From an uncultured Selenomonadales bacterium (GTDB lineage Bacteria; Bacillota; Negativicutes; Selenomonadales; Selenomonadaceae): 64,000 nt of DNA. The position numbers were made by a program, and so were the translations under genes. How positions within the stretch are numbered: the first letter of the stretch is position 1; the number at the start of each line of letters is the position of its first letter. This document shows positions 24,364 through 42,440 of the stretch, piece after piece. Under the pieces are notes generated by a model. That model did no database searches, was not told the origin of the DNA, and saw nothing but the letters and a program-made list of their open reading frames with translations. The stretch is from the NCBI GenBank assembly GCA_946408355.1, contig CAMJRX010000001.1:1-64000 (forward strand), read 5' to 3'.

Positions 24364-25521
24364 TCACACGTTGACGCCATAATTCCTGCCGAGAGCCGCC
24401 AAACCGCCGCTCCAGCCTGCGCCGATTGCATTAAATTTCCATTCTCCCTTGTTGCGATAAATTTCACCGACAACAACAGCAGTTTCGACGGAAAAATCTT
24501 CGCCCAAATCGTAACGAATAATTTCTTTGCCGTTGGTATCGTCGACGACGCGAATATAAGCGTTGGAAACCTGCCCGAAAGTTTGCCGGCGGGATTCGGC
24601 GTCGTAAATCGTTACGGTGAAGTCAATTTTCTCGACATTAGCAGGAACTTTGGTGAGGTCGACTTTAATTTCCTCGTCATCGCCCTCGCCCTCGCCGGTG
24701 AGATTGTCGCCCATGTGCTCAACCGAGCCGCTTTTATGCTTGAGGTTGTTGTAGAAAACAAAATCTTCGTCGGAATTAACTTTACCGTTAGCACCGAGCA
24801 AAAAAGCCGCCGCGTCAAGGTCGAAATCGTGCCCACCGTCATATTTGTTGACGTCCCAGCCGAGACCGATTAAAAGTTTCTTCAAACTCGGATTGCCTTT
24901 CGTCAAATCAACTTTTTGACCCTTTTGCAAACTAATAGCCATAGATGATCCTCTCCTCTTTTTATTCTTGGTATTTGGCGGAAGTTTTTCCTGCGAACTG
25001 GCGGTGGAAAAATTTCCGTTTCTTTTTATGTTTACAAGACTTGAGCCTCCGACATTGCTTTGAACTCTTTCACTCAATATATCTCGCAACTTGTTGACTT
25101 TTTCGTCGTCAAGCTTTTCGCAAAGAAGCAACATTGTATCGAGTGCTCGCGTCGTATAACGTTCGTCAAAATTTTTCCAATGAGTGTGCGCCCATTCGTT
25201 GCGAACATTCTTCAATTCCCTGACCCAATCCAAATATTTTCTCGGTTGTTTCTTGCCGAAAATTTTTCGCCAATGAATTTCTATCAAAAGCAAACAACGA
25301 TGTATGTCAAGCGATTCGACAAGCTCCGCGTAGTCTCCGCCCGGTGGCAAATCTGTCTTCTGATACTCGCGCAGAACATTCAAAACGCCTTCAGTCCACC
25401 AACTGTCTTTGCCGTAATTGTCGAAAAGCTCTTTGGCAACATAGGGTGCCAATATTTCCCGCAAAGTCACATTCATTGCCCTGCCGACAAGTTCATGATT
25501 CGACCAATAATCAACGTCCAT
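24364..25521 (-). CDS. HEPN (Swt1-like) - TerD domain protein; internal start at about 24942 for TerD alone is plausible
   Basis: N-terminus [22 protein letters not shown]...[37 protein letters not shown] (HEPN RxxxxH-like RNEWAH). C-terminus [49 protein letters not shown] (TerD). Confidence 0.85.
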
Positions 25522-25524
25522 GAT

Positions 25525-26754
25525 TTAATCCTTTCTGCCGACAGTCCAACGCAGACCCCAATCGAAAGCCCTATCCATTTGTTCGGAGTCATCAAAAAAT
25601 TCGACAATTTTTTCAACGCTGAAAGTTCCTCCGACATTTTCAAGCAACGCAATGGCGCAAGTATGTTTTTTTGAGCCGTATTCGTCCATTTTTACGATTA
25701 ATTCGGGGCTTCCGGGACAATTTACGGTAACAATGCCTTTAGCCTCTTCCCAGTTTGCCGCTCCCTCGTAAATAAAAGTATAAATTAAAATTCTGCGGAT
25801 CTTATCGGTGAATTTTCCATTAACGCGAATAGTTTCGCCCGAGGCAATGGCTCCGGTGCGGTCGTCGCCGTCGAGCGCGATATAAGGCGGATAATCGAGT
25901 CTTCCGAAATGATTTCCGAGAGCTTGAATAGCACCTATATTGCCATCTTTAAGTTCAAAGAGGCACGCGAGATCTAAATCAATACCTTTGCTGGTAAATC
26001 TGCTAAAAAATCCGGAACTTTTTTGTTGAGGTTGGCTCCAGTTGAGATTAATGACGATTTCGCCGAGTTGGGAGCCTTTTTTTACGAGATTAACCTTTTG
26101 CCCCTTGCGAAGTTCGACTTTTTTAGGTTGAGGAGGTTCTTCGCGTCTTGGCGGCGGCGGAATTTTAATTTTTTCGCGTCGAGTATTAATTTTGGTACGT
26201 TCTGTATTAATTTTAGGCTTTTCTGGTTCGATTTGTGGCGGCGGAGGCGAATCTTTGACTTCGATACCGAAATTATTACAAAGAGCGGCTAAACCTCCGC
26301 TAAAACCTGCGCCGGTTGCGTTAAATTTCCACGAGCCTTTATAACGATAGATTTCACCGAGAACAATAGCGGTCTCAACGGTAAAATTTTCGAGTGGAAA
26401 GGTTGCAATTTCGCCGCGAGTACCGAAAATTTTTAAAATCGCGCCGCGAATCATGCTAAAATTTTGTTTACGATTATCAGCGTCGTAAATTGTGGCAGTC
26501 AGAGCAATTCTTTCGACGTGACGGGGAATTCTAGACAAATCAACGTCAATAGAGTCGTCATCGTTATGATTTACGGCTCCGGAAACGTGTTTAGGGTTGC
26601 CATAGAAGACAAAATCGTCGTCATCAGCAACTTTTCCGTTCGATTGCGTTAAAAATGCCGCCATATCAATGTCGAGAGCTGAATCGGGGCGTTGAAACTT
26701 GATTGTCAAGAAATTTTCGTTGAGTGGGACCTTTTGCCCCTTGCCAAGTTGCAT
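25525..26754 (-). CDS. Two-domain TerD / TerA-like protein with proline-rich charged linker
   Basis: First half MQLGKGQKVPL...ALDIDMAAFL...GEIYRYKGSWKFNATGAGFSGGLAAL; second half VELRKGQKVNLVKKG...GIDLDLACLFEL...VTVNCPGSPELIVKMDE; GGGAGG before ATG. Confidence 0.88.
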   Translation of the reverse strand: MQLGKGQKVPLNENFLTIKFQRPDSALDIDMAAFLTQSNGKVADDDDFVFYGNPKHVSGAVNHNDDDSIDVDLSRIPRHVERIALTATIYDADNRKQNFSMIRGAILKIFGTRGEIATFPLENFTVETAIVLGEIYRYKGSWKFNATGAGFSGGLAALCNNFGIEVKDSPPPPQIEPEKPKINTERTKINTRREKIKIPPPPRREEPPQPKKVELRKGQKVNLVKKGSQLGEIVINLNWSQPQQKSSGFFSRFTSKGIDLDLACLFELKDGNIGAIQALGNHFGRLDYPPYIALDGDDRTGAIASGETIRVNGKFTDKIRRILIYTFIYEGAANWEEAKGIVTVNCPGSPELIVKMDEYGSKKHTCAIALLENVGGTFSVEKIVEFFDDSEQMDRAFDWGLRWTVGRKD

Positions 26755-26802
26755 TTTCTTACCTCCCAAAAGTTATCAAACATATTTTATCAAAAAAGTT
26801 GC

Positions 26803-32237: not shown

Positions 32238-33335
32238 ATGAACGAAGAAATTTATTCCGAACGAATAGCGCAATGTTTTACGATTGAGGATTTGACGCGC
32301 ATGTTTAGCTTGGCTGAACTGTTGGACATTGTGCGGGCGGGACTTTTGCAAGATTGGCTTGCCGATAATTTTTCCGAAGAGGCAGCAGAAATTTTGTCGC
32401 TTGAGGAAATTGCTAATTGGAATGATGACGAATTGCGGCTTGCCCTCTGCGAGCTGTTAAGAATTGATTCCGCTGATTTGTCGGATTATGACGCGCAGTC
32501 GATTGAGCGTGCACTTAATAAACGCCGCTTGAAAGAAATTTTTACTACAGAAGACAAAGGCGGCACCGTCGTAACTAATCAGCGCGAACTTATCGACGCA
32601 CTCGACAACGGCGATTTAATTATTTACTTAGTCGGCGGCGTCTTCCAAATTCCGCGTAGATACGGCGGTGTCACTTACTACGGTCGCGAAAATTCTATCG
32701 TCGAAATTCCCAACCGTCGCAACGTGGACTTTGACAGCGCGGAAATTTCCTTGAACGACTTGCAAGTTTTTGTTCGCAATTCGATTACCGTTAAATATGC
32801 CAACTCGACGAATCTGATTTTCCTGCGCGGCGATAAAATTGCCCTCGATGACGCCGTTAAAAAAATTGATGTCTATAAACTTCTGCGCGGGCGGCGTGCC
32901 TTTGAAACGCCCGAAAACTTTTCACAACGTGCAGAAAATATGCGCGGAATTGTCGTTGGCAAAACTTTCCTCGACGAAAAAAATTACAATATTAATCTGC
33001 AAACTTTTGACTTGAAAATTGATTGGTACATAGATTTTTTGTCCGTCGCGAGGAGTTTTACCGAAAAATTTTTCCATTGCAATATTCCCGCCGAATTCGC
33101 CCAAAAAATTTACGAAACTGAACGCGCTCAACTCGTCTACGCTGATTTTTGCGCTAATGGCGACCGTCCCGCTATCAAGCAACTTTATCTGATTACCGCC
33201 GACGGAACGCGCATTGATATTGTTGTCACCGATAAGCCCACGCTCGAATATTTTGCCGAACAAAATCAAAGCGGCGGTTCGGGCGGCAGAGGTTACGGCT
33301 TGAATATTATTATGGACTTCAATTTAGATGGCTAA
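32238..33335 (+). CDS. Hypothetical protein, first gene of the dual Hsp70-like operon
   Basis: Intact 365-aa ORF; stop overlaps the start of the next gene (ATGGCTAA). Confidence 0.75.
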   Translation: MNEEIYSERIAQCFTIEDLTRMFSLAELLDIVRAGLLQDWLADNFSEEAAEILSLEEIANWNDDELRLALCELLRIDSADLSDYDAQSIERALNKRRLKEIFTTEDKGGTVVTNQRELIDALDNGDLIIYLVGGVFQIPRRYGGVTYYGRENSIVEIPNRRNVDFDSAEISLNDLQVFVRNSITVKYANSTNLIFLRGDKIALDDAVKKIDVYKLLRGRRAFETPENFSQRAENMRGIVVGKTFLDEKNYNINLQTFDLKIDWYIDFLSVARSFTEKFFHCNIPAEFAQKIYETERAQLVYADFCANGDRPAIKQLYLITADGTRIDIVVTDKPTLEYFAEQNQSGGSGGRGYGLNIIMDFNLDG

Positions 33336-34164
33336 TATGAAAGCATTTCACACACTGCGGACGCGGGAAAATTTTTCGGCGGCGGACTTTGAAATTTTTA
33401 CGATGATATTATCCGCGTTGAAGTGGCGCGAGAAAAACGGCGAAATAAAACTCGTGACGGATTCACGCGGCGCGGAATATTTTGAGCGGCTCGGCTTGTC
33501 GGCGGCGTGGAATAAAATTGACACGTCGCTTGACCAAATGGATTCGTTCGGCTGGAATGAAAAAATTTTTTGGGCGGGTGCGAAACTTTTTGCCCTATCG
33601 AAACAAGCCGCGCCCGTCGTCATGATTGATTTGGATTTTATCGCGTGGCAACGGCTCGACTTCGCGCCCTTCGCAACAAATATCGCCGTAATTCACCGCG
33701 AGCAAGTCAACAACAGAATTTATCCCGATAAAAATTTTTTCCGGCTCAAGAACGGGCAAAATTTACCGGCGGCTCTCGATTGGTCGGTTGAGGCTTGCAA
33801 TACGGCTTTTGCTTACTTCGGCGCGAACGATTTTATCAAACGCTACACCGATTTTGCCTTTGAGCTGATGACTTCGCTGGACACAACCGACGACGTTTTA
33901 TCGTACATGGTTTTTGTCGAACAGCGTTGGGCGGCAATGTGCGCCGCGCTTATGCATAGAGAAATTTTTTCGCTGTCGTCGCTGGAAAATTTATTCGGGC
34001 GGCAAAAATATTTCACGCACCTTTGGGGCAGTAAGCAAAAATTTCGTGACAATTTAAAGGCTTCCGAAAACTTTTGTCGAAATTGTGCAAGAAGAATTCA
34101 AAACGACTTCCCGCGCTGGGCTGAAAAGTTGCGGGCAAGTCAATGGGCTGGAAAATATTTTTAA
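33328..34164 (+). CDS. Hypothetical protein, possibly GT-A-fold-like (DUF6734-like)
   Basis: VTDSRGAEYFERLGL ... APVVMIDLDFIAWQRLDFAP has a DxD-like motif after a hydrophobic strand; translationally coupled to the upstream gene. Confidence 0.65.
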   Translation: MANMKAFHTLRTRENFSAADFEIFTMILSALKWREKNGEIKLVTDSRGAEYFERLGLSAAWNKIDTSLDQMDSFGWNEKIFWAGAKLFALSKQAAPVVMIDLDFIAWQRLDFAPFATNIAVIHREQVNNRIYPDKNFFRLKNGQNLPAALDWSVEACNTAFAYFGANDFIKRYTDFAFELMTSLDTTDDVLSYMVFVEQRWAAMCAALMHREIFSLSSLENLFGRQKYFTHLWGSKQKFRDNLKASENFCRNCARRIQNDFPRWAEKLRASQWAGKYF

Positions 34165-34176
34165 GGGGGCGCGTCA

Positions 34177-34881
34177 ATGTTCGGAAGATATGACGACAAA
34201 TCTTTTAGAGAACAGTTGGAAAAAAATTTGACGTGGTTGCGGCAGGCGATTTTAAATCTTGATGATTATGTTCCGCGTGAAGATTATGATTCTTTGCGGG
34301 AGCGGGAAAGAACTTTATCGCGCAATGTCGATTCACTTCAAATAGAACTTGTGACTTCGACGCGGCGATTGGAGGCGGCGGAAAAAAATTGTCGCGACTT
34401 GGAGCGGAGCTTAGAAAAAATTTCTGCCGAGTATGATTATTATCGTGAGGCTTATGCGAAATTGGACGCGGCGTATAAAAATTATCTTTCGCTCAACGAG
34501 AAAATTCGCTATCAACTGGCGGGGATTTTCGGCGACGCGCAGACCGTGCAAGGATTTTTAATCGGCGCGGCGAACGAAAAGCATATCAATGACTTTTGGG
34601 ATTATCTGCGCTACTCTCTGAACGACAACCGACTTTCCGCCGATGATGCCAAAATTTTGACGGGGCTGTTTGATTTTTGTTTCGACGCGCTCAATCGCAG
34701 TTCTCGCGAGCCAATTTTTTCGCGGCTCCACACCGAACGCGGCAGTCGTTTTAATAGCTTGACTATGACTCGCACTTCTAACAGCCGCCAACTCGGACGT
34801 GTTCAATCGGTTTTGCTTGAGGGCTACGCCGACCGCGTCGGAAATATTATCCGCACGAGTTTGGTTTTTATCGCAGATTGA
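34177..34881 (+). CDS. Coiled-coil protein with GrpE-like C-terminal pattern (GrpE-like 1)
   Basis: N-terminal coiled coil; C-terminus GSRFNSLTMTRTSNSRQLGRVQSVLLEGYADRVGNIIRTSLVFIAD resembles the GrpE beta-domain; AGGGGGC RBS. Confidence 0.7.
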   Translation: MFGRYDDKSFREQLEKNLTWLRQAILNLDDYVPREDYDSLRERERTLSRNVDSLQIELVTSTRRLEAAEKNCRDLERSLEKISAEYDYYREAYAKLDAAYKNYLSLNEKIRYQLAGIFGDAQTVQGFLIGAANEKHINDFWDYLRYSLNDNRLSADDAKILTGLFDFCFDALNRSSREPIFSRLHTERGSRFNSLTMTRTSNSRQLGRVQSVLLEGYADRVGNIIRTSLVFIAD

Positions 34882-34894
34882 GGAGGAAATTTTC

Positions 34895-37800
34895 ATGGCA
34901 ACAAAACCGCTTAAAGTCTTGCCAATTTCAACGGAGCAATTCAAAAAATTTCGCGAGCAAAAATTATTGCGGCTGATTGACGAATCGGCGACCGAGCTTG
35001 AGAAAAAATTTTCCGCGCTGTGCGAAGAGTTCGGACAAAAATTTAATGCCGACCAATGGATTTTAATGAAACGCAAAAATCAAGAACCCGAAGTTTATTA
35101 CATTCACGCGATAGCCGGCGTCATGCCCGATTTAAATAAATTTTCCTGCGCAGTGCAAAATGAATATGAAAACTATAAATTCTCATCTGATAATTGGAAG
35201 TTTGCAAATTTTCAAGGCGATTTACCGTCCGAAACTGAAATGAATCGTTGTTTCAACGACAAGTTAAATTATTTTAGACGTGGTGACGGTAGCATTGGGA
35301 CTGAAGTCAAATACTACGCTGGCGGATTTAGTTTCAAGAAGAATAACCAGTTCTGGTACAAATATTTTGCCAACGACTACAAGGGCACTACCAACCTGCA
35401 TGGCAACAAAACCTCTGGCGGTAGAAATATGTTAAGCGTTCCGATTTACCGATTTAACGGGATTAACAGCGACAAACTTCCGGCGGCGTCGGCTCTTTTA
35501 TTTTGGTTGGAATATGACCTTGAGCCGCTTGAAGAACAATTCAACAACAAAGCCGGGCGCGAGGCTTTTAAGGCACTGCAGAAACTTTACAGCGAGCACG
35601 GCGAATTTTTGCTTGGCACGGAGGCGGGCATTTCCCTCGACAGGCAAAAAGTTTTGAAGGCGGCACTTGCCGGAACGAAGATTGATTTTGTCCCGAAAAT
35701 AAAAGCCGTCCTCGACAGCAAAAAAATTGAGGGCGACGAAGATTTTATCAAACAGCTCGAAAAGGATTTATTGGAGTGCGACACGCGCCGCGCAGACCTC
35801 AGCCCTTACGGGAAAAATTTGCTTTACGGTCCTAACGAGGGGCATTGGGAGCTTTGGGATTATGGCGACGAATTCGACAGCGAAAACGAAGTTATTTTAA
35901 AGGAAAGTTTCACGGCGCGAGACCCTGCCGGCGATATTAGTCGCGGGATTGTCGGGATTGACTTCGGCACAAAATCAACCGTCGTCGTCTGCGAAAACGC
36001 CAATCATCAGCAGTTGCCCGTTCAAGTTGGCAGCGGCGACTACACAAAGGGCATTAACGCCGCCAATTACGAAAATCCGACCGTCATGCAGTTCATTGAC
36101 TTTGAAAAATTTTTGACCGACTACAACGCCCGCGCAGGTCGACCATACACCAGTTGGAATGATTTAACGGTTTCGCACACGGCTTTTGACAACTTGAAAG
36201 CAACCGACAGCAAAAATTATTACTCGTTTTTCGACGGGCTTAAACATTGGTGCGGCACGCCCGAAGAGGAAATTAAAATTCGCGACGCCAAAGGCAAGGA
36301 ATGGAATTTGCCCGCGTTCCTAAAGCTCGGCGACGACATGCCCAATCCGATTGAGCTTTACGCTTATTTTCTCGGACTTTATATCAACAACATGATTCGC
36401 GGCGAAATTATTCTTAGTTATTTGATGTCGTTCCCCGTGACTTATGATTTTGACGTTCGCGAAAAAATTCGTGCGAGTTTTGAGCGCGGGATTAAAAAAT
36501 CGTTGCCAACGGCTTTGCTAAATAACGAAGCGGCAATGAAAAATTTTTACGTAGTGCACGGCGCGAGCGAGCCGGCGGCTTATGCGATTAGCGCGTTGCT
36601 TGGTTACAACTTCGACCCGGAAGGTGCCAACGAAAATTATTATGGCGTGTTTGACTTTGGCGGCGGCACGACGGATTTTGATTTTGGCGTCTTGAAAGAA
36701 TCAGAGCGGCAACGCTACGATTACGAGCTTAAACATTTCGGCGCGAACGGTGATAAAACTTTGGGCGGCGAAAATCTTTTGCGGCTTTTGGCGTTTGAAG
36801 TTTTCAAGGCTAATGTTAACAAACTTTTGCGTCCCGACCCGAATAATCCCGACGCGGCGTTGATACCGTTCACATATGCCGCCGAGCGCGAAAAATTTTT
36901 GAACAGCGAGAGCGTCATCAATGAGACTTCGCAGGAAGCGCGCAAGAATATGCATGATTTAATGGAGGCGTTGCGCGTTGTCTGGGAAAATCCGACTTCG
37001 GACGCCGCTAAGAAAATTTGCGATACGGGTATCACGCTCAATCTTTTCGACGAAAGCGGCAATCCCGTCACGAATTTTACTTTGGACATTGGCGGCAATA
37101 AATCTGACGTTAAACCGCCCGCGTCCGTTCAAACTTCAAACGACGAGTTAATTACTTTGGAAAAATTGACAACGAGCGACCCCAGATTAGCGGAGTTTTT
37201 GTCATCCCTTTACCAACTCGGATTTGGAAATAAAGCTCTTACTTTCAAACAATGGAAAAAAACTTTTGAGAATGTATTAAAAGATTATAAAGAAGTTTTA
37301 ACGTGGCAACCGATTATCGCTCATATCTGCGAAGTTGGCAATTTTGATGAATTTATTCCGCGCGAATACAACCAGCCGACGCAAGAGCCGACAAAAAATT
37401 TGGTTGACTTGAAAAAAATTCTTCGCAATCGTATAGAAAAGGGCGTGCGGAATTTTTTCTATTCGCTAAAGCAGGCGTTTGACAGCGACGCGGCGAAAAG
37501 AAATTTCATCAAGGAGTTCGACGAGGTTGGGGAGTTCGCGATATTTTTGGCGGGCAATTCGTCTAAGTCGGAGCTTGTTAAGGAAATTTTCGAGGATTAC
37601 ATAGGCGAAAACTTCAAGGCGGGCGAAATATTGGGCGTCGAGAAAGATTCTGTGACGTTTAAGTTATTCCCGCCATTGGGCACGCCGGAGGCAATCGAAA
37701 TTCAAAAGTCACGCGGCGTAGAAATTAGCGATGACCCGTTCGAGGCGATGAAACAACCGACGGGCAAAACGGGCGTGGCGTTCGGATTGTTGCGTTGTAG

Positions 37801-38188
37801 GGAGAGCGGGCGAATCGAAGTTAGCGACATTCAACCCGACGAAGTGACCGGCGAGGCATTCCAACTTTATATCGGGCGGCAGAAGAAAGGCAAGTTTAAA
37901 ACGCTGATTGACCGCACGACGAAAATGAACGTTTGGTACGAATTTTTAGACGATGCGGGCGCATCATTCGACATTTTATATACCGACGTGCCGGAGGCGG
38001 CGACAAATAACGCGCCGATAACAATTTCCAAGCAATATCCCGTTCGATTGGAGCAAACCGACGCCGAAGCGCAAATTTATATCCGTCCGGTGGCGTCGCA
38101 CGCGATAGAATATGCCGTAGCTTATAGCCGCGAGGATTTGGCGGAAAATAATTTCTTAGTCGAGCCGACGCGGATAGATTTAAAATAG
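34895..38188 (+). CDS. Large divergent Hsp70/actin-fold ATPase with ~385-aa N-terminal extension (Hsp70-like 1)
   Basis: GIVGIDFGTKSTVVVCE (phosphate-1), YYGVFDFGGGTTDFDFGVL (phosphate-2), FAIFLAGNSSKSELVKEIF (adenosine motif), GVAFGLL; GAGGAGG RBS. Confidence 0.88.
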   Translation: MATKPLKVLPISTEQFKKFREQKLLRLIDESATELEKKFSALCEEFGQKFNADQWILMKRKNQEPEVYYIHAIAGVMPDLNKFSCAVQNEYENYKFSSDNWKFANFQGDLPSETEMNRCFNDKLNYFRRGDGSIGTEVKYYAGGFSFKKNNQFWYKYFANDYKGTTNLHGNKTSGGRNMLSVPIYRFNGINSDKLPAASALLFWLEYDLEPLEEQFNNKAGREAFKALQKLYSEHGEFLLGTEAGISLDRQKVLKAALAGTKIDFVPKIKAVLDSKKIEGDEDFIKQLEKDLLECDTRRADLSPYGKNLLYGPNEGHWELWDYGDEFDSENEVILKESFTARDPAGDISRGIVGIDFGTKSTVVVCENANHQQLPVQVGSGDYTKGINAANYENPTVMQFIDFEKFLTDYNARAGRPYTSWNDLTVSHTAFDNLKATDSKNYYSFFDGLKHWCGTPEEEIKIRDAKGKEWNLPAFLKLGDDMPNPIELYAYFLGLYINNMIRGEIILSYLMSFPVTYDFDVREKIRASFERGIKKSLPTALLNNEAAMKNFYVVHGASEPAAYAISALLGYNFDPEGANENYYGVFDFGGGTTDFDFGVLKESERQRYDYELKHFGANGDKTLGGENLLRLLAFEVFKANVNKLLRPDPNNPDAALIPFTYAAEREKFLNSESVINETSQEARKNMHDLMEALRVVWENPTSDAAKKICDTGITLNLFDESGNPVTNFTLDIGGNKSDVKPPASVQTSNDELITLEKLTTSDPRLAEFLSSLYQLGFGNKALTFKQWKKTFENVLKDYKEVLTWQPIIAHICEVGNFDEFIPREYNQPTQEPTKNLVDLKKILRNRIEKGVRNFFYSLKQAFDSDAAKRNFIKEFDEVGEFAIFLAGNSSKSELVKEIFEDYIGENFKAGEILGVEKDSVTFKLFPPLGTPEAIEIQKSRGVEISDDPFEAMKQPTGKTGVAFGLLRCRESGRIEVSDIQPDEVTGEAFQLYIGRQKKGKFKTLIDRTTKMNVWYEFLDDAGASFDILYTDVPEAATNNAPITISKQYPVRLEQTDAEAQIYIRPVASHAIEYAVAYSREDLAENNFLVEPTRIDLK

Positions 38189-38200
38189 AGGTGATAACTT

Positions 38201-39511
38201 ATGAGCAGAGAGGAAATTAAGCGAATTTTTTTCGAGCTTTTGACTGAAGACGAAGAATTTAAGCAAAGATTGACGGAATTTATTGTAAGCGCGGTTGCAG
38301 AAAAATTTGACGAGCGCGTTGTACAAGAGACGGAGCCGCCTAAATCGGAAGAGGTCGCGCAAGAAAAATATTCCTCCGAATTTATACAAAAAGTTGCTGA
38401 ACATTCCGGTTTTGATAAACTGCGCGGCGAGAAAATTGCCGTCGAAAATCAATGCAAAGAATTGCAAGCCAAATGCGATAAACTTGCCGACGATAAAAAG
38501 TTTGTCGAAAGTCAGCGCGACGAATTGCAAGACAAATTCGATAAACTTGCCGACGATAAAAAGTTTGTCGAAAGTCAACGTGACGACTTGCAAGCCAAAT
38601 GCGATAAACTTAGCAACGATAAAAAGTTTGTCGAAAGTCAACGCGACGACTTGCAAACCAAATTCGATAAACTTAGCAACGATAAAAAGTTTGTCGAAAG
38701 TCAGCGCGACGAGTTGCAAACCAAATTCGATAAACTTGCCGACGATAAAATAATTGTCGAAAATCAGCGTGACGAGTTGCAAACCAAATTCGATAAACTT
38801 AGCGACGATAAAAAAGTTGTCGAAAGTCAACTTGCCGACTTGCAAGACAAATTTGATAAGCTTGCCGCCGATAAAAAAATTGTCGAAAATCAGCGCGACG
38901 AATTGCAAGACAAATTCGATAAACTTAGCAACGATAAAAAGTTTGTCGAAAGTCAGCGCGACGAATTGCAAACCAAATTCGATAAACTTCTCGGCGATAA
39001 AAGAATTGTCGAAGGCAAGCGCGACGAATTAAACCGCCAATTAGAAATCTTATTAAAAGAAAAGGAATCCGCCGAAAAACAACTTGCCGAGCGATTCGCT
39101 AAGGGTTGGGAAGTGTACCAAACTTTTTTGAAACTCAATGCGGAAGTCCGCGAAAATTCTGGGTTTTATGCTGAAAGATTTGAGACGTTCATTTGCAAAG
39201 GCGCACAATATAAAAGTCTTGACGGGATATGGGAAGCCGCGCTGGGTTGTAAACGCGACGGAAAAATAGATGACGCAGAAATTTTTTGGAATGTTTTTGA
39301 ATATTTTGTTCAGCTGGTGAACTTTGCATTTGGCGATAACTTTATCGAAATTCTTAATACGCAAACCGGCGAACGCTACAACACCGATATACATTCCACG
39401 AGCGGAACAAATAGCTCAACTCAAGGCGTCGTCCGCGAAGTAATTCTTGCCGGCTATAAAAATAACAACAATCGCAAAATCGTCAAAAAAAGCAACGTTC
39501 GAGTGGGGTAA
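38201..39511 (+). CDS. Long coiled-coil repeat protein with GrpE-like C-terminal pattern (GrpE-like 2)
   Basis: Nine 21-aa heptad-based repeats, then GERYNTDIHSTSGTNSSTQGVVREVILAGYKNNNNRKIVKKSNVRVG. Confidence 0.75.
   Translation: MSREEIKRIFFELLTEDEEFKQRLTEFIVSAVAEKFDERVVQETEPPKSEEVAQEKYSSEFIQKVAEHSGFDKLRGEKIAVENQCKELQAKCDKLADDKKFVESQRDELQDKFDKLADDKKFVESQRDDLQAKCDKLSNDKKFVESQRDDLQTKFDKLSNDKKFVESQRDELQTKFDKLADDKIIVENQRDELQTKFDKLSDDKKVVESQLADLQDKFDKLAADKKIVENQRDELQDKFDKLSNDKKFVESQRDELQTKFDKLLGDKRIVEGKRDELNRQLEILLKEKESAEKQLAERFAKGWEVYQTFLKLNAEVRENSGFYAERFETFICKGAQYKSLDGIWEAALGCKRDGKIDDAEIFWNVFEYFVQLVNFAFGDNFIEILNTQTGERYNTDIHSTSGTNSSTQGVVREVILAGYKNNNNRKIVKKSNVRVG
38477..39043 (+). repeat. Nine tandem 63-bp / 21-aa repeats (DKLADDKKFVESQRDELQDKF type)
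   Basis: Units begin DKLADDKKF, DKLSNDKKF, DKLADDKII, DKLSDDKKV, DKLAADKKI, DKLLGDKRI; 21 aa = three heptads. Confidence 0.95.
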
Positions 39512-39515
39512 ATCA

Positions 39516-42440
39516 ATGGCATTTTCAAAAACAAAATTAATCCGCGAGGTCAATCTTTCGCGAAGTCGGCTAGTCAAGGGCAATGCACAAGAAATAATCA
39601 GCGCGGCAGAAGAATCAATGACCGAATTCAAAAATTGCATACAACAACTTTGCAAACTGCTTGACGAGAGATTTTTAATTTTCCGGCAAGATGTCTGGTA
39701 CGATTCACTGACGAATTTATTGTTGCCTAAGTTCGATAAAAATTTTTGTCGGCTGTTGACGTTGGAAGAGTTCGCCGCGCAGATTGACGGCACGCACAAC
39801 GAGGATTTATTTTTGACGTTCGCGGGTTTCAAAGGTCGTTGCATTTCGGCTGAAGAGTGCAGAGAAATTTTTTCGGGCAATGCCAATCATTATCCACACG
39901 CGCCGGGCAATCGTCGCCCGCGTTTTTTTATTGACGGCAGGGAAATTACCGCGAGTTGTCTTTATACGCAACTTTCGTGGACGGAGAAAACTTTTAACTC
40001 AAGCGCGGCGCGAAGTGTTTTTGCCGTTGCCGCCCATAAAAATTATTTTTGCCTTGAAACTACCGGACAGCTTGTTGACAATATCGGCGCGGCGATTCGA
40101 GTTTGCGGTTCCAATCCGTCGAAAAGCGCGGTGCTGATTCCCGTTTGCAATTTGCCGCTTGAAGATAAATTTGGCGATAAAAAAATTGCGGCGGCTTGTG
40201 CAATTCTTGAGGCGGGACTGGTGCCGATTAATTTTGAACTTGGCGACGTGGAAAATCTTCGCAAGCGTTATTTGCAGATGAAAAAATATCTTTCGTTCGA
40301 TGAAGATTTCCGGCTTGATGTGGAGGCGTGGCAAGCGGTTGCGGAGCATGATGAACACATTCAAGAAAATATCGCGACGAGTGCGCTGAAGAAAATTTTT
40401 TTGGAATGCGACATGCGCCGCGCCAATCTTACGCCTTATCCTGAAAGATTTTTGACTGATTCGGAGGCTGGGCATTGGGAGCTTTATGAGGAAAATTTTT
40501 CGCCGGCAGAGGACAGCATAACCATTGCCATTGACGAAGATTGGTATATGAAAAATCCAAAATTCGACGTGAAGGCAAGCGGCGTTTGTGCGATTGATTT
40601 TGGCACGAAAAGTACGGTTGCAGTTTGTCTCGACGACGGGAAAAAACTTTTGCGAATTGGGCGCGGCGAACTTGAAAGGGCACCTTCGCCAAATGATTAC
40701 GAAAATCCGACAGTTATAGAGTTGCGCGATTACGTTGCATTTTTAGAGGCGTATCAGACAAAAGACGGACGACCGTTCACGGAGTGGGAGCAGTTAACGG
40801 TTTCGCACGAGGCGTTGAATCGGCTTTTGGAGAGCGAGGACAGGCAAGTTGCGCAAAGTATTTTCGGCGAGTTAAAGCAATGGGCTAATCGTCGGCAAGG
40901 CTTGATTCGGTTGCGCGACCGTTGCGGCAAAGATATTTTGTTGTATCCTTACGACGAGTTGAGCAAGGGCGATTTTGACCCTGTGGAGCTTTACGCTTAT
41001 TATGTCGGGCTTTATATCAACAGCATGTACAACGGGATTTATCTTGAGTATATTTTTTCGTTCCCCGTCAACTACAAGAAAAATATTCGCGAGCATTTGT
41101 TAGAAAGTTTTCGGCGCGGGATTAAACATTCGTTGCCCGAATCGATTTTGAATGACGAAGCGTTGATGAAAAATTTTTCAGTCTACGCTGGAGCAAGCGA
41201 GCCGGCGGCTTATGCGGTGTGTGCACTTCGCGAATTGGAGCGAGAAAAAAATATTCCGCGTCCGACGGAAAGGGAGCCGATTTATTTTGGCGTATTCGAC
41301 TTTGGCGGCGGTACGACGGATTTTGACTTTGGAATTTGGCGTTTACCGACGGCGGAAGATAAGCGCGGTTTTAATGACGTAATCGAACATTTTGCCGCCG
41401 AAAGTGACAGCGGGCTTGGCGGAGAAAAATTGTTGAATCTCATTGCCTACGAAGTTTATAAAAATAATTTGGAGTTAATGCGCGAAAACTCGATACCGTT
41501 TGCATTGCCAGAAGGTTGCAAGCCATTTGACGGCGCGGAATTTTTGTTAAGTGATTCGTTGAGTGCAAATCTTAATCGACGCCGCTTGAGTGATAAACTT
41601 CGCCCGATTTGGGAGGAGTGGGACGACTTTGAATCGTTGGACGACGAGCCGTTGACGGTTACACTTTTCACGGAGCGCGGTAAAAAAACTCTTAACCTGA
41701 TAATTTTAGTTGAGGATTTGCGAAATTTTTTAGGCAAGAGGATTCTGCGCGGCGTGGAAAATTTTTTTTGCGCACTTCGCGAGGCATTTATTAATCGACC
41801 GCTTAGGAGCTATCACATTTTATTGGCGGGCAATTCTTGTAAATCTAATTTATTGCAAGAAATTTTTCGCGCGGAAATGGAGTGTCAACGGCAAATTTTT
41901 TCCGACGAAATTTTAAGAAAGACTGGTCACGCGCCCGATGCGGTAGAATTTATTTTGCACATGCCGCTTGGACAGGAAAATATTTCGATGAATTACGAGC
42001 GCATGCCGACCGGTAAAAGCGGAGTGGCTTTTGGCTTGTTGGATTGTCGACGCGGCGGAAATGACGTTTTGATTATCGACAAGAATTTTTCCGACGAAAC
42101 GAAATTTTATTTCCACTTGGGCACCAGCGATGGGCAAGGCAATTTTAAAACGTTAATTCCTCGCGAGGACAACGACGGAACTTGGAAAAAATTTTTATAC
42201 GTGACTGAAGATAAATTTGACATTTTCTTTACAGACGAGCCGCGAGCAATCGGTGGAAAAATTCCAGTCGACGAAACCGAGCGAATTTCTTGCCGTATTA
42301 ATTTTTTGCGGAACGCTAGCGAGGGACAAATTTATATTCGTAGCACTTCACCTAACGAAATTGAATATGTCGTTGCTGACGGCACGGACACGCCGAAAAT
42401 ATTTTTGTCCAAAGTCGCGAAGATTGAATTTAGCAATTAA
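39516..42440 (+). CDS. Large divergent Hsp70/actin-fold ATPase (Hsp70-like 2), paralog of 34895-38188
   Basis: GVCAIDFGTKSTVAVCL, YFGVFDFGGGTTDFDFGIW, HILLAGNSCKSNLLQEIF, PTGKSGVAFGLLDCRRGG; shares NLTPYPERFLTDSEAGHWELYE with paralog DLSPYGKNLLYGPNEGHWELWD. Confidence 0.88.
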   Translation: MAFSKTKLIREVNLSRSRLVKGNAQEIISAAEESMTEFKNCIQQLCKLLDERFLIFRQDVWYDSLTNLLLPKFDKNFCRLLTLEEFAAQIDGTHNEDLFLTFAGFKGRCISAEECREIFSGNANHYPHAPGNRRPRFFIDGREITASCLYTQLSWTEKTFNSSAARSVFAVAAHKNYFCLETTGQLVDNIGAAIRVCGSNPSKSAVLIPVCNLPLEDKFGDKKIAAACAILEAGLVPINFELGDVENLRKRYLQMKKYLSFDEDFRLDVEAWQAVAEHDEHIQENIATSALKKIFLECDMRRANLTPYPERFLTDSEAGHWELYEENFSPAEDSITIAIDEDWYMKNPKFDVKASGVCAIDFGTKSTVAVCLDDGKKLLRIGRGELERAPSPNDYENPTVIELRDYVAFLEAYQTKDGRPFTEWEQLTVSHEALNRLLESEDRQVAQSIFGELKQWANRRQGLIRLRDRCGKDILLYPYDELSKGDFDPVELYAYYVGLYINSMYNGIYLEYIFSFPVNYKKNIREHLLESFRRGIKHSLPESILNDEALMKNFSVYAGASEPAAYAVCALRELEREKNIPRPTEREPIYFGVFDFGGGTTDFDFGIWRLPTAEDKRGFNDVIEHFAAESDSGLGGEKLLNLIAYEVYKNNLELMRENSIPFALPEGCKPFDGAEFLLSDSLSANLNRRRLSDKLRPIWEEWDDFESLDDEPLTVTLFTERGKKTLNLIILVEDLRNFLGKRILRGVENFFCALREAFINRPLRSYHILLAGNSCKSNLLQEIFRAEMECQRQIFSDEILRKTGHAPDAVEFILHMPLGQENISMNYERMPTGKSGVAFGLLDCRRGGNDVLIIDKNFSDETKFYFHLGTSDGQGNFKTLIPREDNDGTWKKFLYVTEDKFDIFFTDEPRAIGGKIPVDETERISCRINFLRNASEGQIYIRSTSPNEIEYVVADGTDTPKIFLSKVAKIEFSN

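Follow-up and report, generated by a model that had tools for sequence, protein, structure and literature searches.

A six-gene operon (A-B-C-D-E-F, every gene on the plus strand) lies in the 64,000-nucleotide stretch analysed here (the window), taken from an uncultured Selenomonadales bacterium (contig CAMJRX010000001.1, assembly GCA_946408355.1). It likely encodes two GrpE/Hsp70-type pairs: C and E as divergent homologues of GrpE, and D and F as divergent, enlarged Hsp70-type ATPases, the C-D and E-F units being old paralogues that have co-evolved within one operon. GrpE (PF01025) and DnaK form the canonical bacterial Hsp70 exchange-factor pair. An earlier note, made from the sequence alone, had proposed that the coiled-coil genes C and E share a GrpE-like C-terminal domain and that each stands directly 5' of its own Hsp70-like gene. 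The gene coordinates confirm this arrangement (Table 1): the C stop at 34881 is followed by the D ATG at 34895, preceded by AGGAGG, and the E stop at 39511 by the F ATG at 39516. The interval assigned to the feature, 34177-39511, covers C, D and E but leaves out F (39516-42440).

C and E share a C-terminal domain related to GrpE

Both C-terminal sequences quoted in the earlier note are present and in frame. By BLASTP, C residues 103-219 and the C-terminal part of E are 26% identical (E=1e-10 in a single comparison), and when the domain of C or E is searched against the whole genome the only second match is the other (E=1.7e-6 and 3.5e-7); the common domain thus holds up. The C-family and E-family profiles match each other with a probability of 99.8% and a score of 160.

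The homology of C and E to GrpE is well supported: three approaches, profile-profile comparison, a profile search across genomes and comparison of structures, all lead to GrpE, as had been proposed. The family alignment was built from relatives in 26 of 100 genomes and compared (hhalign) with an alignment of 25 GrpE proteins taken from elsewhere in the phylum. The domain profile matches GrpE with a probability of 94.3% and a score of 52.2, the last helix and the entire wing being aligned to both C-termini. As controls, 200 column-shuffled GrpE profiles scored at most 21.3, the reversed profile 13.1, and twelve unrelated neighbour-family profiles no more than 19.2; the hhalign E-values (1e-7 to 3e-6) each refer to a single comparison and are to be read beside these controls. 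Three disjoint subsets of the family match one and the same GrpE region: the C subfamily alone scores 44.1 (its profile aligned over 121 columns), the E subfamily alone 43.2 (88.6%, 46 columns), and distant relatives alone, from other phyla and other Bacillota, 43.9. Most wing-bearing members conserve the elements FD...H, G.V..V.L.GY and I.K.S.V, aligned with the same elements of GrpE.

The genome-wide search covered 300 whole genomes of the phylum and used a profile made from the C-terminal 105 residues of 46 family members. Beyond clear family members it returned four weak matches only: three are confirmed GrpE genes directly upstream of dnaK, and the fourth, assigned by position alone, lies between dnaK and an hrcA-like open reading frame (ORF), the usual grpE position.

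A long helix followed by a beta wing, the architecture that the earlier note had named as that of GrpE, is what AlphaFold predicts for C, the one of the two proteins that was folded (31 sequences). The model, with a mean predicted local distance difference test (pLDDT) score of 89.6, consists of a 71-residue helix, then shorter helices and six strands. Its top Foldseek matches in the PDB are two chains of Thermus GrpE and human GrpEL1 (probability 0.99, 0.97 and 0.60), the next match standing at 0.11. E-type proteins vary in length between relatives, so rapid length change in their coiled coil is probable.

D and F are divergent Hsp70-type ATPases

The homology of D and F to Hsp70 is likewise well supported. 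Neither matches the Pfam Hsp70 family (PF00012), and the best NCBIfam DnaK match for D has E=0.0011 (17.4 bits). At the profile level D matches the DnaK nucleotide-binding domain (NBD) with a probability of 95% (E=3e-8, hhalign), and all 50 PDB matches listed by Foldseek for the D model are of Hsp70 type, with E=3e-16 to DnaK (32 sequences, pLDDT 82.6; model numbering is shifted by one, owing to one extra leading residue). The profile alignment to the DnaK NBD and the Foldseek comparison go together with the phosphate and adenosine motifs of the actin-like NBD of Hsp70: phosphate-1 GIVGIDFGTKST, phosphate-2 FDFGGGTTDF and adenosine IFLAGNSSKS. F is 42% identical to D over D residues 287-730, and the nucleotide motifs are well conserved in the family alignment, which includes F. 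As regards the peptide-binding beta domain that follows the NBD in Hsp70, the C-terminal end of D is beta-rich (975-1096); the Foldseek alignments run to ~780 columns against near-full-length DnaK, a measure of overall span only and not of residue-by-residue correspondence.

The IIB beta-hairpin of DnaK is reported, in a recent study, to contact GrpE (PMC10825016). D residues ~714-731 align near this hairpin, and a comparable stretch can be picked out in F by eye; as a counterpart of the GrpE contact, the D stretch is suggestive only. The insertion that follows the predicted hairpin in D is shorter in F.

SrfB (PF07520), another family of large proteins, is not supported as an identity for D and F, neither of which matches it in Pfam; a neighbouring island protein (L123:4733-7888) gives E=0.031, below the cut-off. 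Elsewhere in the genome a third F-type paralogue (G000:C5:49024-51483, locus L006) adjoins a 1093-aa HerA-like ATPase, with no coiled-coil or GrpE-like gene beside it.

Each subtype keeps its own partner

The pairing of exchange factor and ATPase is specific and well supported, and the C-D and E-F units named in the earlier note are confirmed as subtype-specific. The loci examined contain 41 domain genes, 37 of them with an assignable downstream D- or F-type gene. C-type genes precede D-type genes in 20/20 cases and E-type genes precede F-type genes in 14/14 (34/34 such pairs); the three remaining genes are wingless C-type genes before an ordinary HSP70-family gene that weakly matches F. The four unassigned cases are two further wingless loci, one contig end and one locus whose neighbour falls below the threshold. 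The wingless version of the C domain (L067-L069, L071, L072) stands before a recognisable HSP70-family gene of 525 aa, which suggests that the wing is lost where the partner differs.

Distances between partners correlate with r=0.95 (permutation maximum 0.24 in 5000), a value that includes shared species history; within subtypes the correlations are 0.91 and 0.95. A better control is offered by the pairing of subtypes within a single genome. The domain and ATPase trees agree in outline: CD is monophyletic, EF is monophyletic, and pairs from other Bacillota are closer to CD than EF is, a grouping with support of 0.94 for the domain and 0.64 for the ATPase. The two units are therefore old paralogues. 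The duplication suggested in the earlier note stands in this deep sense, but a recent tandem event is not supported by the same trees.

Among 34 distant D/F loci, 18 have a GrpE-like domain gene, nearly always adjacent, and these pairs span Bacillota, Gammaproteobacteria, Bacteroidales and Campylobacterota.

Alternatives to a GrpE/Hsp70 pair

A number of results count against this assignment. No single sequence passes the Pfam or NCBIfam GrpE cut-off: C reaches E=0.081 and 13.0 bits against PF01025 (cut-off 25.8), through the coiled coil only; GrpE is absent among the 25 Pfam families listed for E; and Pfam, NCBIfam and PADLOC return only coiled-coil noise for the single C and E proteins. The Pfam check therefore fails for single sequences, and it is the profile-profile, genome-wide and structural comparisons that bear the claim out. 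The domain profile found no GrpE among PDB sequences, so its sequence reach is limited. TM-scores (template modelling scores) of C against GrpE are 0.23-0.32, with a best Foldseek E-value of 1.4e-3 and the long helix dominant; the low values probably reflect a long helix that bends differently in the model. Gammaproteobacterial wings are degenerate. D/F relatives with no GrpE-like neighbour also exist (e.g. L141, L143, L146, L150, L155, L160), so the ATPase can work without one.

The low identity, the want of a significant single-sequence Pfam match and the modest TM-scores are what one would expect of convergence, that is, of coiled-coil proteins whose small beta domain looks like GrpE but has no relation to it. 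We consider this very improbable: the scores of shuffled, reversed and unrelated profiles are much lower, three disjoint subsets of the family reach the same GrpE region, an unbiased genome search arrives at grpE positions, and C and E have an Hsp70 as neighbour. An origin from GrpE with loss of exchange is easier to envisage, if still unlikely. C and E would then act in docking or as scaffolds, holding their Hsp70-like partner to another part of the system, such as the membrane, an injection spike or a HerA-like pump, which would suit the strong divergence of wing residues, notably in Gammaproteobacteria, the wingless homologues (L067-L072) that still precede an HSP70-family gene, and the long repeat array of E; it fits poorly with a wing that is well conserved, in agreement with GrpE, in most members that have one, and with the well-conserved nucleotide motifs of D and F.

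Neighbourhoods of the pairs

The relatives of the window genome are Selenomonadaceae metagenome assemblies. Islands within the window's own genus continue with DUF4280, which an AHH nuclease may or may not accompany. They also hold an Imm11 immunity protein, a 750-aa protein, a protein of 140-170 aa that in one case matches Hcp weakly, a baseplate protein resembling VgrG, and more HSP70-family genes. DUF4280 is a PAAR-like domain (PMC5349215). At L120-L123, L046 and L050 we observe a long operon with a DUF4280/nuclease toxin, Imm11, a VgrG-like protein, coiled-coil proteins and up to four Hsp70-family genes, one of which has a C-terminal VWA-like stretch. VipB and Phage_sheath_1 models, tried to see whether the VgrG-type islands belong to a contractile system, gave no match in the relatives' genomes tested, where a divergent sheath is possible.

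Outside the genus the neighbour is often a HerA/FtsK-like ATPase. On an Acinetobacter plasmid a GrpE-like gene and two Hsp70-like genes stand with genes for a WYL regulator, a HerA-like ATPase and a HEPN protein, an integrase and HipA toxins adjoining; on a Helicobacter plasmid the pair is accompanied by a DNase of the WHH/colicin type, an SMI1/KNR4 protein and an FtsK-like ATPase. The GrpE-like and Hsp70-like proteins of both plasmids are annotated as hypothetical, and the two loci (L216, L217) are candidates for a defence or toxin-delivery system. A Pseudomonas relative lies beside type I restriction genes. Phage records contained no D homologue. A Ureibacillus locus encodes, upstream of a GrpE-like/Hsp70-like pair, a fusion of an HSP70 domain with a von Willebrand A domain (L138:1424-3523).

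The recurrence of similar pairs near DUF4280, VgrG, nuclease-toxin and immunity genes, or near HerA/FtsK-like ATPases, suggests a dedicated Hsp70/GrpE machine for conflict systems. Our tentative proposal, which we put forward as a possibility and no more, is that an unannotated GrpE/Hsp70 branch in several phyla serves inter-bacterial conflict, with subtype-matched pairs supplying the power by which toxins are loaded, held or exported through an apparatus that is either injection-like (DUF4280/VgrG) or HerA/FtsK-like. Against the GrpE/Hsp70 reading of the operon stands the window itself: no J-domain protein, toxin or Hcp/VgrG/injector gene was recognised beside the operon, and its genome (84% complete) yielded no VgrG-type domain. 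The operon lacks all the neighbours described above; A-B-C-D is what it has in common with the toxin-type islands.

On the biology, the main rival is an anti-phage or abortive-infection system in place of a chaperone for secreted toxins. It is compatible with C and E being GrpE-like and D and F Hsp70-like, so its probability is not exclusive of theirs, and we hold it to be possible but doubtful. The Acinetobacter plasmid and the Pseudomonas relative described above point this way, and Hsp70 with GrpE is a reported theme of conflict systems centred on GAP1-N2 GTPases (Kaur et al. 2020, PMC7159879). PADLOC defence models, however, match no Hsp70-like protein and meet C and E through the coiled coil only, and neighbours in the window's own genus are effector, immunity and spike genes.

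Comparison with known systems

As in GrpE/DnaK, C and E have a long helix, a helix bundle, a C-terminal beta wing and a conserved wing pattern, and their genes lie directly upstream of an Hsp70. Unlike GrpE, they fall below Pfam and NCBIfam cut-offs, have a variable or repeat-bearing N-terminus and a partner of ~1000 aa with an extra N-terminal region, and are additional to the genome's own grpE (G000:C8:42182-42667). The family is also sparsely distributed, which argues against general housekeeping.

Within the limited collection of literature searched, we found no description of this GrpE-like/Hsp70-like family. The nearest precedent (PMC7159879), the GAP1-N2 GTPase-centred neighbourhoods, likewise has HSP70 and GrpE genes of its own in a conflict-type setting, but no protein of the window operon matched a GTPase family in Pfam or NCBIfam. 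Accessory proteins of type VI spikes and effectors (e.g. the DUF2169 protein TvpA, PMC13373197) adjoin VgrG, PAAR and effector genes, as the pairs do in Selenomonad relatives; in PMC13373197 and in the part of PMC3482391 consulted no Hsp70/GrpE basis is mentioned, and type VI systems differ further in that neither VipB nor a phage-type sheath was found in the relatives' genomes tested.

A possible working cycle

From the computed homology, predicted fold, pairing, co-variation and neighbourhoods we infer the following cycle; the established mechanism of GrpE makes exchange factors the natural reading of C and E. C (or E) would dimerise through its long helix and helix bundle, and the wing would engage the NBD of its own partner and open the cleft; ADP would leave, ATP would rebind and the bound client would be released. 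The helical N-terminus, with its 21-aa repeats in E, may set reach or geometry. The client would be a toxin, an effector or a protein of an injection apparatus, since genes of these kinds are frequent neighbours of the pair in relatives. Some Selenomonad islands have four Hsp70-family ATPases and no sheath recognisable by either model tried; under the tentative proposal made above, the energy might even come from Hsp70 cycling in place of sheath contraction.

GrpE is usually regarded as a housekeeping cofactor. If the proposal is true, bacteria have evolved dedicated Hsp70 cycles for conflict systems; C with D and E with F are testable partners, and 'hypothetical' coiled-coil and 1000-aa proteins could receive names.

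Layout of the operon and its genome

The features are collected in Table 1. Gene A matches no Pfam family and has an NCBIfam match at chance level; its homologues precede B-C-D in several toxin-type islands of relatives (L041, L042, L047, L050, L055, L057, L060), and the adjacency of gene B to C is conserved in relatives.

Table 1. Genes and sub-gene features of the operon, in window coordinates
Feature	Position	Strand	Description and basis
Gene A	32238..33335	+	365 aa, ORF; no family assigned
Gene B	33328..34164	+	278 aa, DUF6734 (PF20508), Pfam E=2.2e-16
Gene C	34177..34881	+	234 aa, GrpE-like, partner of D
C long helix, residues 34-104	34276..34488	+	AlphaFold/DSSP, pLDDT ~90-96 over most
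C short-helix bundle, residues 108-174	34498..34698	+	AlphaFold/DSSP; C-subfamily profile aligned with GrpE
C GrpE-type beta wing, residues 181-233	34717..34875	+	Six strands, pLDDT ~94-96; hhalign to GrpE wing
Gene D	34895..38188	+	1097 aa, divergent Hsp70, extra N-terminal region
D approximate Hsp70-type nucleotide-binding region	35948..37801	+	Motifs, DnaK alignment, model; ends approximate
D low-confidence insertion after predicted IIB hairpin	37097..37390	+	pLDDT <50 at 736-760, 782-784, 816-833
Gene E	38201..39511	+	436 aa, GrpE-like, partner of F
E tandem repeat, coiled-coil unit	38441..39030	+	9.4 copies of 63 bp (21 aa, three heptads); Tandem Repeats Finder, 86% matches
E GrpE-type wing	39368..39508	+	E-subfamily profile against GrpE
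Gene F	39516..42440	+	974 aa, divergent Hsp70, paralogue of D

The genome is a draft of 2.45 Mb in 85 contigs. Away from the operon, on the minus strand at 24364-26769, two TerD-domain genes lie side by side; in the one at 24364-25521 TerD is fused to a Swt1-like HEPN domain, which forms the N-terminal part.

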